Shown: positions 52,779 to 55,051 of the stretch, in pieces
How the letters are laid out: every line of letters begins with the position of its first letter
Numbering within the stretch: position 1 is the first letter of the stretch
Source of the DNA: Acidimicrobiia bacterium
GTDB taxonomy: Bacteria; Actinomycetota; Acidimicrobiia; Spongiisociales; Spongiisociaceae
Direction: 5' to 3'
DNA length: 64,000 nt
Assembly (NCBI GenBank): GCA_009841105.1
Contig: VXMM01000002.1
Location: 1-64,000 of the forward strand
Notes under the pieces: model-generated
What the model was told of the DNA's origin: nothing
What the model saw: only the letters and a program-made list of their open reading frames with translations
The model's database searches: none
Position numbers and translations under genes: made by a program

Positions 52779-53840
52779 TCAGACGCGGGACCAGGATCCA
52801 GCCCGTTCCCGGCGCTGGGCGTCTCGCGCTTGCTTGAGGATGAGCTCGAAGATTTTCTCGACCTCGACCGGATCGAGACCGTGCCTTTCCGCCTCCTGCC
52901 GGACGATGGCCAGCAGTTCCTCCTCGCGCTCGGGCACGTGGACCGGCATCCCTCGCTCAGCCTTGATCCGGCCCACGCGCATGACCATGAGATACCGGCG
53001 TGCCAGCAAGCGGACCAGGTCACGGTCGATCATGTCAATGTTGATCCGAACCCGATTGACGCCGAGAGCGTCCATGAGATCGGTGAACATCTCGAAGGTG
53101 ATCTGATGGGACACCACGGTGCGGGCCGCCATCGGATCCGGGTGGACTTCGACCATCAGCCCGTCGGAGCCGACGCCCTGGGCAGCCAGCGACAAGGGTT
53201 GGATCCTGGTCCGGGAACCGGCGGCGGCGGAAGGCGCCACGATGACGGGCAGGTGGCTGATCTCCTTCAGGACCGGAATCGAGCTCAGGTCGAGGGTGGC
53301 CCGGGTCGACTGCTCGAAGGTGCGGATACCTCCCTCGCACAGCACCACCTGGTCATTGCCCTCGGCGAGTACGTATTCGGCCGCCCACAGCCATTCGTCC
53401 ACCGTGGCGGATCCTCCGCGCTCGAGTAGCACCGGCTTCCCCGTCTGACCGATGACCCGTAGCAGTTCGAAGTTCTGCATGGAGCCGGGATCGACGTGGA
53501 TCATGTCCACGTGCGCAGCGACCGTCTCTACGTCCTTCGGTTCCAGTGCCTTGGTAACCGTCGGTAGACCCACCTCGGCGCCGGCGTCGCGCAACAACTC
53601 CAGTCCCGGCCCCCCCAGTCCCGGGAATTCGTACGGTGAGGTGCTCGACTCGAAAACCCCGCCCCGGAGTACGGCGGCGCCGGCGTCGGCCACCACGGTG
53701 GCGACCGCCATGATCTGTTCCTCCGACTCGACCGCCCGCGGTCCTGCGATGGTCGGGAACGGGTCGTGCCCGAACCTGGTCTCGCCCACCGCGACGATGG
53801 TGTCGGTGGGTGATCCGTTGCGTAGTGCTCTGCGTTCCAT
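52779..53840 (-). CDS. DAHP-synthase-like pseudoenzyme domain fused to AroQ chorismate mutase
   Basis: 353 residues: a DAHP-synthase (AroF/KdsA-type) barrel at about 25-255, then a chorismate mutase at about 260-345. The barrel aligns without gaps to active type I DAHP synthases but its catalytic residues are gone: GPC is GPR (35), KPR is ESS (64-66), GARN is DPGS (117-120), LLKRG is LLERG (140), CERG is CEGG (170), DPSH is APSA (202-205), SDG is lost before Gln246; Glu231 of the metal site is kept. The mutase keeps Arg265, Arg282, Lys293, Arg305-Glu306 and a Gln near 337. So chorismate to prephenate is the likely reaction. GAGGAG precedes the ATG. Attenuator and leader peptide lie upstream. 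Confidence 0.85.
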   Translation of the reverse strand: MERRALRNGSPTDTIVAVGETRFGHDPFPTIAGPRAVESEEQIMAVATVVADAGAAVLRGGVFESSTSPYEFPGLGGPGLELLRDAGAEVGLPTVTKALEPKDVETVAAHVDMIHVDPGSMQNFELLRVIGQTGKPVLLERGGSATVDEWLWAAEYVLAEGNDQVVLCEGGIRTFEQSTRATLDLSSIPVLKEISHLPVIVAPSAAAGSRTRIQPLSLAAQGVGSDGLMVEVHPDPMAARTVVSHQITFEMFTDLMDALGVNRVRINIDMIDRDLVRLLARRYLMVMRVGRIKAERGMPVHVPEREEELLAIVRQEAERHGLDPVEVEKIFELILKQARDAQRRERAGSWSRV

Positions 53841-54101: not shown

Positions 54102-54983
54102 TCAGGTCGCGTTGGCGCCTTGGGCTCGGTCGTTCTCTGGAGTGACGACCGGGTTCCGCCTACCCAGCCATAGGAAGAGGGCGACGCCTCCGACGGCGGC
54201 GGCGAGGGCGCTCCACTGGCTCCACGTCAGCGCACCCAGGGTCCGGTCCCCGCCCACATCCAGGGCCAACCGCGTGAAATCGATCAGGAACCGCTGGATG
54301 CCGTACCAGGTCATCCAGATGGCGAACAACTGGCCGTAGCGGAGCGGGACGCCGGACCGGAAGACCAGCCAGTAGAGGAAGCCGAAGCAGACCGCCGCGG
54401 CCAGCATGTCATACAGCGCGGCATGGTGGTAGATGCCGCAGAACTCACCCACGGTCGCCGTCGTGCACTCCAGGCGGTCGTGCTGGGGAGCCACGTCGTA
54501 GCCCGGCCGGATCCCGTACCCCAGCGCGAAGCGGGTCGGCCCGCCGAGGTGCTCCACGATGGCCAAGTCGCCGATGCGACCCACCACCGTTCCTATGGCC
54601 AGACCGAAGGCGGCCACGTCCACGGCGGGTCCCAACCGGAGTCCCAGCCGGTGGGCCCGCCAGATACCGGCCCCGATACCGCCGGCGAAACCGCCCAGGA
54701 TGGAGTAGTTGCCACCGATGTTGATCAGTTCGCCGGCGTCGAATCCGTTCTCCGCCCAGTACGCGGGCAGGGTCAGCCAGCGGGCGCCCAGCAGCGCCCC
54801 GACCAGCGCCCAAGTCAGGACCGACTGGAACAGGTTGGCGTCGAACCCCCGGGCCCGGTAACGGAGGGTGCCGTAATAGGCCCCGGCCAGGAACCCCACC
54901 CCGGCGAAGACGCCGTGGAGCGACATCCGCAGCGGTCCAACCTCGAAGATCGGAATGGGGGGATAGGAAATAACCGCAAACAC
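54102..54983 (-). CDS. lgt: Prolipoprotein diacylglyceryl transferase (Lgt)
   Basis: About 293 residues, polytopic membrane enzyme that moves diacylglycerol from phosphatidylglycerol to the lipobox Cys. ISYPPIPIFEVGPLRMSLHG is the normal N-terminus. The Lgt signature is present but divergent: GRIGDLAIVEHLG keeps the Arg, Glu and last Gly, but Asp replaces the first Asn; the His-Gly-Gly of proteobacterial enzymes is SILGG. The many lipoproteins in this window would be its substrates. GTG at 54983 is chosen over a GTG two codons earlier and a TTG further up because GTAGG is 9 nt before it. Divergent sequence suggests a lineage-specific form. Confidence 0.85.
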   Translation of the reverse strand: MFAVISYPPIPIFEVGPLRMSLHGVFAGVGFLAGAYYGTLRYRARGFDANLFQSVLTWALVGALLGARWLTLPAYWAENGFDAGELINIGGNYSILGGFAGGIGAGIWRAHRLGLRLGPAVDVAAFGLAIGTVVGRIGDLAIVEHLGGPTRFALGYGIRPGYDVAPQHDRLECTTATVGEFCGIYHHAALYDMLAAAVCFGFLYWLVFRSGVPLRYGQLFAIWMTWYGIQRFLIDFTRLALDVGGDRTLGALTWSQWSALAAAVGGVALFLWLGRRNPVVTPENDRAQGANAT

Positions 54984-55051
54984 GTCCACGAGCCTACCGG
55001 GCTGCAAAAGCCCGCTCGCCGGCGGTGCGCCTGGTCACGCCGGAAGCCCGA

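Follow-up and report, generated by a model that had tools for sequence, protein, structure and literature searches.

A synthase barrel joined to a chorismate mutase

The window analysed here, a stretch of 64,000 nucleotides of DNA from an Acidimicrobiia bacterium, contains a gene whose predicted product joins a DAHP synthase (DAHPS) barrel, lacking most of its catalytic residues, to a chorismate mutase which keeps its own, and this raises the question of what a synthase barrel may be kept for once its chemistry has probably gone. In the following, f denotes a family, g a genus and G a genome of the same Acidimicrobiia order, f1 being the family of the window (12 genomes). The gene and its two domains are:

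52779..53840, minus strand: pseudo-DAHP-synthase/chorismate mutase fusion gene, 353 amino acids (open reading frame and Pfam)
53073..53804, minus strand: type I-beta DAHP synthase barrel, residues 13-256, catalytic site lost (Pfam, match to 1rzm, AlphaFold2, Foldseek)
52806..53057, minus strand: C-terminal AroQ chorismate mutase, residues 262-345, Arg/Lys/Glu/Gln set kept (Pfam CM_2, residue table)

Pfam placed DAHP_synth_1 at residues 24-252 (6e-50) and CM_2 at residues 264-342 (3e-20), and the fusion matched the solved type I-beta synthases 4grs, 1vs1, 1zco and 1rzm with E values from 1e-75 to 1e-67. An AlphaFold2 model (mean pLDDT 90) was superimposed by Foldseek on structure 1vs1 (A. pernix DAHPS) with a TM score of 0.94, at 1.4 A and 52% identity, and the barrel fold of a functional type I-beta DAHPS is present by both the Pfam and the Foldseek result. 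Residues 7-258 matched residues 74-325 of the T. maritima DAHPS chain (1rzm), ranges of equal length which bear out the gapless alignment with active type I enzymes claimed in the initial annotation; T. maritima (Tm) numbering is the fusion residue number plus 67. A barrel followed by a C-terminal AroQ mutase in a single chain is also the layout of a bifunctional DAH7PS-CM enzyme (Pfam), but both sites were found intact in only three relatives, from genera g8 and g20 of family f5.

Loss of the synthase active site

A reference set of 12 catalytic positions, each at least 95% conserved among 51 intact homologues, was used to read the site. The window protein retains two of these, Glu298 (its Glu231) and Arg126 (its Arg59), the latter of which we take, from its motif, to be the equivalent of E. 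coli AroG Arg92. The other ten are replaced, namely (Tm numbering, then the window protein) Cys102 by Arg35, Lys131 by Glu64, Arg133 by Ser66, Glu164 by Lys97, Arg186 by Gly119, Lys207 by Glu140, Arg237 by Gly170, Asp269 by Ala202, His272 by Ala205 and Asp309 by Val242. The Glu is thus all that is left of the Cys-His-Glu-Asp metal site, and of the Lys and Arg residues which bind PEP and E4P, Lys131, Arg133, Arg186, Lys207 and Arg237 are replaced and Arg126 is retained. The earlier statement that every catalytic position but one Glu had changed was accurate for the ten replacements and for Glu231, but had overlooked Arg59. The codons of six of these replacements are:

53736..53738, minus strand: metal Cys102 to Arg, codon 35; Arg in 12/12 family members, by four synonymous codons
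53649..53651, minus strand: Lys131 to Glu, codon 64 (alignment, codon comparison)
53550..53552, minus strand: Glu164 to Lys, codon 97 (alignment, codon comparison)
53421..53423, minus strand: Lys207 to Glu, codon 140 (alignment, codon comparison)
53226..53228, minus strand: metal His272 to Ala, codon 205 (alignment, codon comparison)
53115..53117, minus strand: metal Asp309 to Val, codon 242; freely variable within family f1

Family f1 as a whole has replaced 9 of the 12 catalytic positions (8 of its 12 members having Arg at 119). Of 63 further sites conserved to the same degree it has replaced 7 (Fisher p = 1.5e-5 for the contrast), and all of these (Pro65, Gln115, Gly117, Asn120, Ser241, Gln245 and Leu247 in the intact consensus) belong to the same active-site loops. 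Sequencing error was ruled out, the replacements being common to 8 other genomes of the genus and 3 more of the family, as were catalytic residues elsewhere in the chain, by the equal-length match to 1rzm. The protein is not a KDO8P synthase (TIGR01362 68.8 bits against a cut-off of 314; Pfam), nor is it NeuB (profile searches).

The mutase half and the other pathway genes

In E. coli chorismate mutase numbering, assigned by motif alignment, the CM_2 domain carries all six residues Arg11, Arg28, Lys39, Arg51, Glu52 and Gln88 looked for in an AroQ enzyme, while Asp48 has become Val and Ser84 Ala; the Arg/Lys/Glu/Gln set which the initial annotation had read in this half is indeed there. These residues, and its being the sole mutase found, predict conversion of chorismate to prephenate.

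In the genome of the window (3.05 Mb, 97.5% complete) a single further DAHP_synth_1 gene was found, next to tyrA on contig C54. Its site is intact and it has an N-terminal FXD/FL domain, so that the second, intact DAHPS which had been proposed as a check is present. The fusion barrel and this FL-type DAHPS are about 46% identical and lie on different contigs. Neither a type II DAHPS nor an AroH mutase was found in this genome, where the fusion holds the sole CM_2 domain and which also has a prephenate dehydrogenase and two prephenate dehydratase matches. The two dehydratase-like genes (C54:25001-25540 and C54:43621-44148) share their contig with the intact DAHPS. With an intact DAHPS elsewhere and the sole mutase in the fusion, gene content suggests that the cell should depend on the fusion for its mutase but not for DAHP synthesis.

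The upstream neighbour of the fusion is:

54102..55007, minus strand: lgt (prolipoprotein diacylglyceryl transferase), matched in 21 of 29 related loci

In the family of the window an aconitase-family pair, read as leuC/leuD, then follows, and an amidohydrolase lies downstream of the fusion in just a few members of the genus. Several f2 and f3 genomes have the fusion and the FL-type DAHPS 14-26 kb apart on the same contig; in G092 the genes between them are unrelated, except for the tyrA adjoining the DAHPS.

Fused relatives and the history of the losses

Full-length fusions were present in families f1 to f7 of the order, and outside it a class-level search gave mostly short stand-alone mutase frames. 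The six mutase residues were kept in 69/69 fused homologues, compared to a full synthase site in only 3/69 (f5 g8 and g20). Fusions of f2 have lost the metal-site Cys, His, Glu and Asp, with Lys207 mostly His; those of f3, f4 and f6 have kept Cys, His and Glu and lost Arg133, Glu164, Arg186 and Asp309; those of f7 have lost Arg186 and Arg237, and that of f5 g24 Cys102, Lys131, Arg133, Arg186 and Lys207. From these residues the f1 and f2 sites can confidently be predicted to be dead, and the damaged sites of the other non-intact families are probably inactive or altered. Barrels of f2 (for example L122, L126 and L131) have in common new polar residues where the site used to be (Glu97, Asp119, His140, Arg170 and Asp202), and these could form a ligand or metal site. 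One of the 69 fusions is an f1-like copy in G211, a genome assigned to f3 which also holds an f3-like fusion (L170, L212), and this doubling is probably contamination of a metagenome-assembled genome.

A barrel tree made by a careful search with the active-site columns removed placed the fusions in one clade (100/98), which splits into f1, f3, f4, f6 and f5 g24 (99/91) and f2, f7 and the intact f5 fusions (97/92). As the intact fusions are nested among inactivated lineages, every outgroup has an intact site and it is implausible that a full site was regained, the synthase site appears to have been lost at least twice, by repeated secondary loss. This count rests on the careful tree; in a quicker barrel tree the intact fusions branch first, allowing one shared early loss. 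Of the losses that the initial annotation had proposed to look for in related genomes, those of the window protein are shared across f1, but sites are intact in f5 g8 and g20. Such relatives with an intact site had been named beforehand as counting against a retired barrel, yet in the tree they belong with f2 and f7 and not with f1, and so point to a loss that was secondary and repeated.

The barrel itself has also gone in places. In the mutase tree, which has few columns, bare mutases of f2 genera g15, g18 and g41 nest in the fused f2 mutases (95/89), beside fused g22, and bare mutases of f7 g26 group with the f7 fusions (92/92). A search for barrel remnants beside the bare mutases gave nothing better than E 0.1, and two deletions of the barrel would be the simplest reading.

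Other combinations of these domains occur in the order. Frames of about 590-740 amino acids in f3 and f8 (L163:1923-3989; also L146, L147, L149, L150, L151/L161 and L162) join a chorismate mutase, a prephenate dehydratase with an ACT-like tail and an intact DAHPS barrel, possibly making a trifunctional enzyme, with a barrel that branches in the tree as sister to the fused clade. Fusions of mutase and prephenate dehydrogenase have the mutase C-terminal in f8 (L202:149-1243, L203, L158) and N-terminal in f3 (L159:2980-4062, L160), so that the mutase has several different partners within one order. Stand-alone type I DAHPS (L001:1234-2247 and 18 of 20 others read in the order) have Asp for the metal-binding Glu298 and are otherwise intact, the two exceptions being f5 g8 copies.

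Selection on the barrel

Purifying selection was measured as dN/dS (Nei-Gojobori, pairs within genera). In f1 it was 0.071 for the barrel and 0.196 for the mutase, and the barrel gave 0.063 (f2), 0.046 (f3), 0.056 (f4), 0.034 (f6) and 0.064 (f7), several of these medians having dS above 1 (saturation) and those of f1 and f3 (dS 0.4-0.6) being reliable. The f5 barrel gave 0.114 from two pairs, one of an intact genus and one of g24. Purifying selection acts strongly on the non-catalytic barrels, and the barrel is not decaying in the family of the window, where 68% of barrel sites are invariant. Arg35, Ser65, Lys97, Glu140, Ala202 and Ala205 are fixed in f1 while their codons vary synonymously; Glu64 has a single codon throughout and position 242, the former metal Asp, varies freely. 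The low dN/dS and the fixed pocket residues with synonymous variation, together with the second intact DAHPS and the single mutase, uphold the proposal that a retired synthase barrel is selected as a fold on a chorismate mutase.

Barrel retention and type I DAHPS

Type I and type II DAHPS were looked for in 138 genomes of the order, with a closer set of 50, and a second type I match was found in 64 of the 69 fusion genomes; the five others were two incomplete assemblies, G033 (79%) and G040 (88%), and three g22 genomes. This second enzyme had an intact site in 17/17 genomes read which have a dead or altered fusion. Seven genomes with a bare mutase from a fused lineage (G029, G035, G064, G086 and G076 of f2; G047 and G052 of f7) had no type I DAHPS at all, and 6 of the 7 had a type II enzyme. 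The g22 genomes have a type II DAHPS and no FL-type enzyme, with the fusion still present, and their barrel is 51% identical to those of other f2 genera (62-69% for the others), compared to 59% for the mutase (others 56-66%). Genomes with both DAHPS types (for example G098, G214, G345, G084 and G096) have two type I matches each, and the fusion was kept in all four of these that were read directly (G098, G214, G084 and G096), which argues that barrel loss goes with the absence of type I and not with the gain of type II.

Altogether 15 of the 138 genomes were without any type I barrel, including those of f1 g4 and of f3 g180 (G348). In G348 and in G012 and G014 (both f1 g4) these may be additional joint losses; a type II enzyme was found in G348 and G014, and the G014 mutase, the one readable in g4, groups in the mutase tree with mutases of other orders. 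The link between the barrel and type I DAHPS, with only two well-placed joint losses, is a lead and not proof. The initial annotation had suggested that the barrel could be a partner of a true DAHPS, and the disappearance of the barrel together with type I DAHPS lends this indirect support.

Possible roles of the barrel

We tentatively favour the reading, at a little under an even chance, that the barrel is a retired subunit which couples the mutase to the active FL-type (type I) DAHPS. The fusion would then be the chorismate mutase of the cell, its N-terminal barrel descended from a live DAHP synthase which lost its chemistry, and the dead barrel would be kept as an interaction domain, a pseudo-subunit joining, or co-regulated with, the FL-type DAHPS; the first pathway step and the Phe/Tyr branch step would thereby sit in one assembly, where each could control the other. 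The physical contact, its form and any regulation are the parts of this scheme that we infer. It agrees with the finding that lineages without type I DAHPS have either lost the barrel or show it diverging fast, with the second type I enzyme of 64/69 fusion genomes, with purifying selection on the barrel and mutase residues kept in 69/69, and with the precedent of M. tuberculosis, where the mutase is activated by DAHPS binding (PMC4281200). Set against it are that just two co-loss events are well placed, for which a shared cause or chance is possible, that the barrel and the FL-type DAHPS of the window's genome are only about 46% identical and on different contigs, and that, according to PMC12202928, hetero-oligomeric activation is not on record for DAH7PS. 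In addition, f8 and part of f3 have a type I DAHPS without such a fusion, their mutase being joined to other pathway enzymes, so the FL-type DAHPS itself does not require the fusion.

A serious competitor, to which we would give something like a third of the probability, is that of an internal scaffold: by packing against the mutase dimer of its own protein, the dead barrel would keep that dimer in a form which binds chorismate well, with no other protein needed. Removal of the barrel from the Porphyromonas gingivalis DAH7PS-CM raised the Km for chorismate about ten-fold (19 to 207 uM) while leaving kcat as it was, and its mutase was weakened by interdomain mutations (PMC12202928). In that enzyme, by an AlphaFold3 model and mutagenesis, the barrel contacts the mutase through the beta6-alpha6 loop and helix 6, and the barrels pair through the beta5-alpha5 loop and helix 5 (PMC12202928). 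The segments for barrel pairing and mutase contact are retained here (GIRTFE; Ala145, Thr146, Asp148 and Glu149 at least 97% in the 66 non-intact fusions, a motif-matched and post hoc comparison), and the f1 barrel is more constrained than its mutase. Alone, however, such a scaffold gives no reason to expect that the barrel would go in just those lineages that lost type I DAHPS, unless a type II enzyme takes over as activator of the bare mutase, as in Mycobacterium, the DAHPS of M. tuberculosis being of type II. As only coupling to DAHPS predicts, with that proviso, that the barrel is lost along with the live type I enzyme, we place it slightly ahead.

A fuller version of the coupling reading is more doubtful: that a synthase domain, inactivated independently in several lineages, serves as a pseudo-subunit plugging the mutase into a live type I DAHPS, that the survival of the dead domain depends on its live relative, and that every stage is still extant, from live ancestors and dead intermediates to a decaying form and to descendants without the barrel.

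We think it improbable that the mutase is switched allosterically by a metabolite (an aromatic amino acid, as the initial annotation had suggested, or prephenate or some other compound) sensed in the rebuilt pocket. Conservation of the pocket replacements within f1, a separate set in f2 (His140, Glu97 and Gly242 each in 17/20) and the absence from the fusion of the FL regulatory domain carried by the true DAHPS speak for it, but with 68% of f1 barrel sites invariant the conservation of the pocket is unexceptional, and every family has rebuilt it differently. Gain of a different reaction seems very improbable: f1 does have conserved polar residues at the former site (Arg59, Glu64, Lys97, Glu140, Arg141, Glu231 and His233), but the same positions are replaced differently by family, f1 and f2 have lost most of the metal set, and KDO8P synthase is not a candidate (69 bits against 314 for TIGR01362). 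That the barrel is a leftover being lost everywhere, as its being dropped in two lineages and diverging in a third might suggest, is the least credible reading and is largely refuted for the family of the window, given the strong purifying selection in all families which keep type I DAHPS.

Known systems and significance

Fusions of both domains are already known, as is the reverse arrangement with the mutase as regulator. The DAH7PS-CM of P. gingivalis and Prevotella nigrescens (PMC12202928) has the same domain order, in 366 residues compared to 353 here, but possesses both activities, whereas the present fusion has lost its synthase site and coexists with a separate DAHPS. The Listeria and Geobacillus CM-DAHPS proteins (3nvt, 5j6f) fuse the same two families, their barrels being 41-43% identical by structure alignment, but have an N-terminal mutase which is mainly a regulator of the active synthase (PMC12202928), so that the roles are mirrored here. 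In the M. tuberculosis CM-DAHPS complex (PMC4281200) a mutase likewise works in contact with a DAHPS, but the two are separate proteins and the synthase is active, unlike the fused protein with its lost synthase site. The P. gingivalis case would predict an internal scaffold and the M. tuberculosis case coupling between proteins, and both would keep a barrel free of chemistry. A dead relative from an aromatic pathway retained with a function is likewise described for a eudicot indole-biosynthesis pseudoenzyme (PMC12727527), which involves other enzyme families and plants. No dead DAHP synthase domain, including any fusion with a dead synthase half, was found in the open-licence literature.

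The fusion passes two NCBIfam equivalog models (NF009239, 311 bits against a cut-off of 279; TIGR01361, 291 bits against 268), which exposes a misannotation, as current models would label it an active or bifunctional DAHP synthase. The arrangement mirrors the known one, where an active synthase has the mutase as its regulatory partner. A single order holds a graded natural series of live fusion, damaged site, dead barrel, fast-diverging barrel and deleted barrel. Read alongside which members have a live type I DAHPS and which have none, this series makes directly testable what a catalytic domain may contribute once its chemistry has gone.
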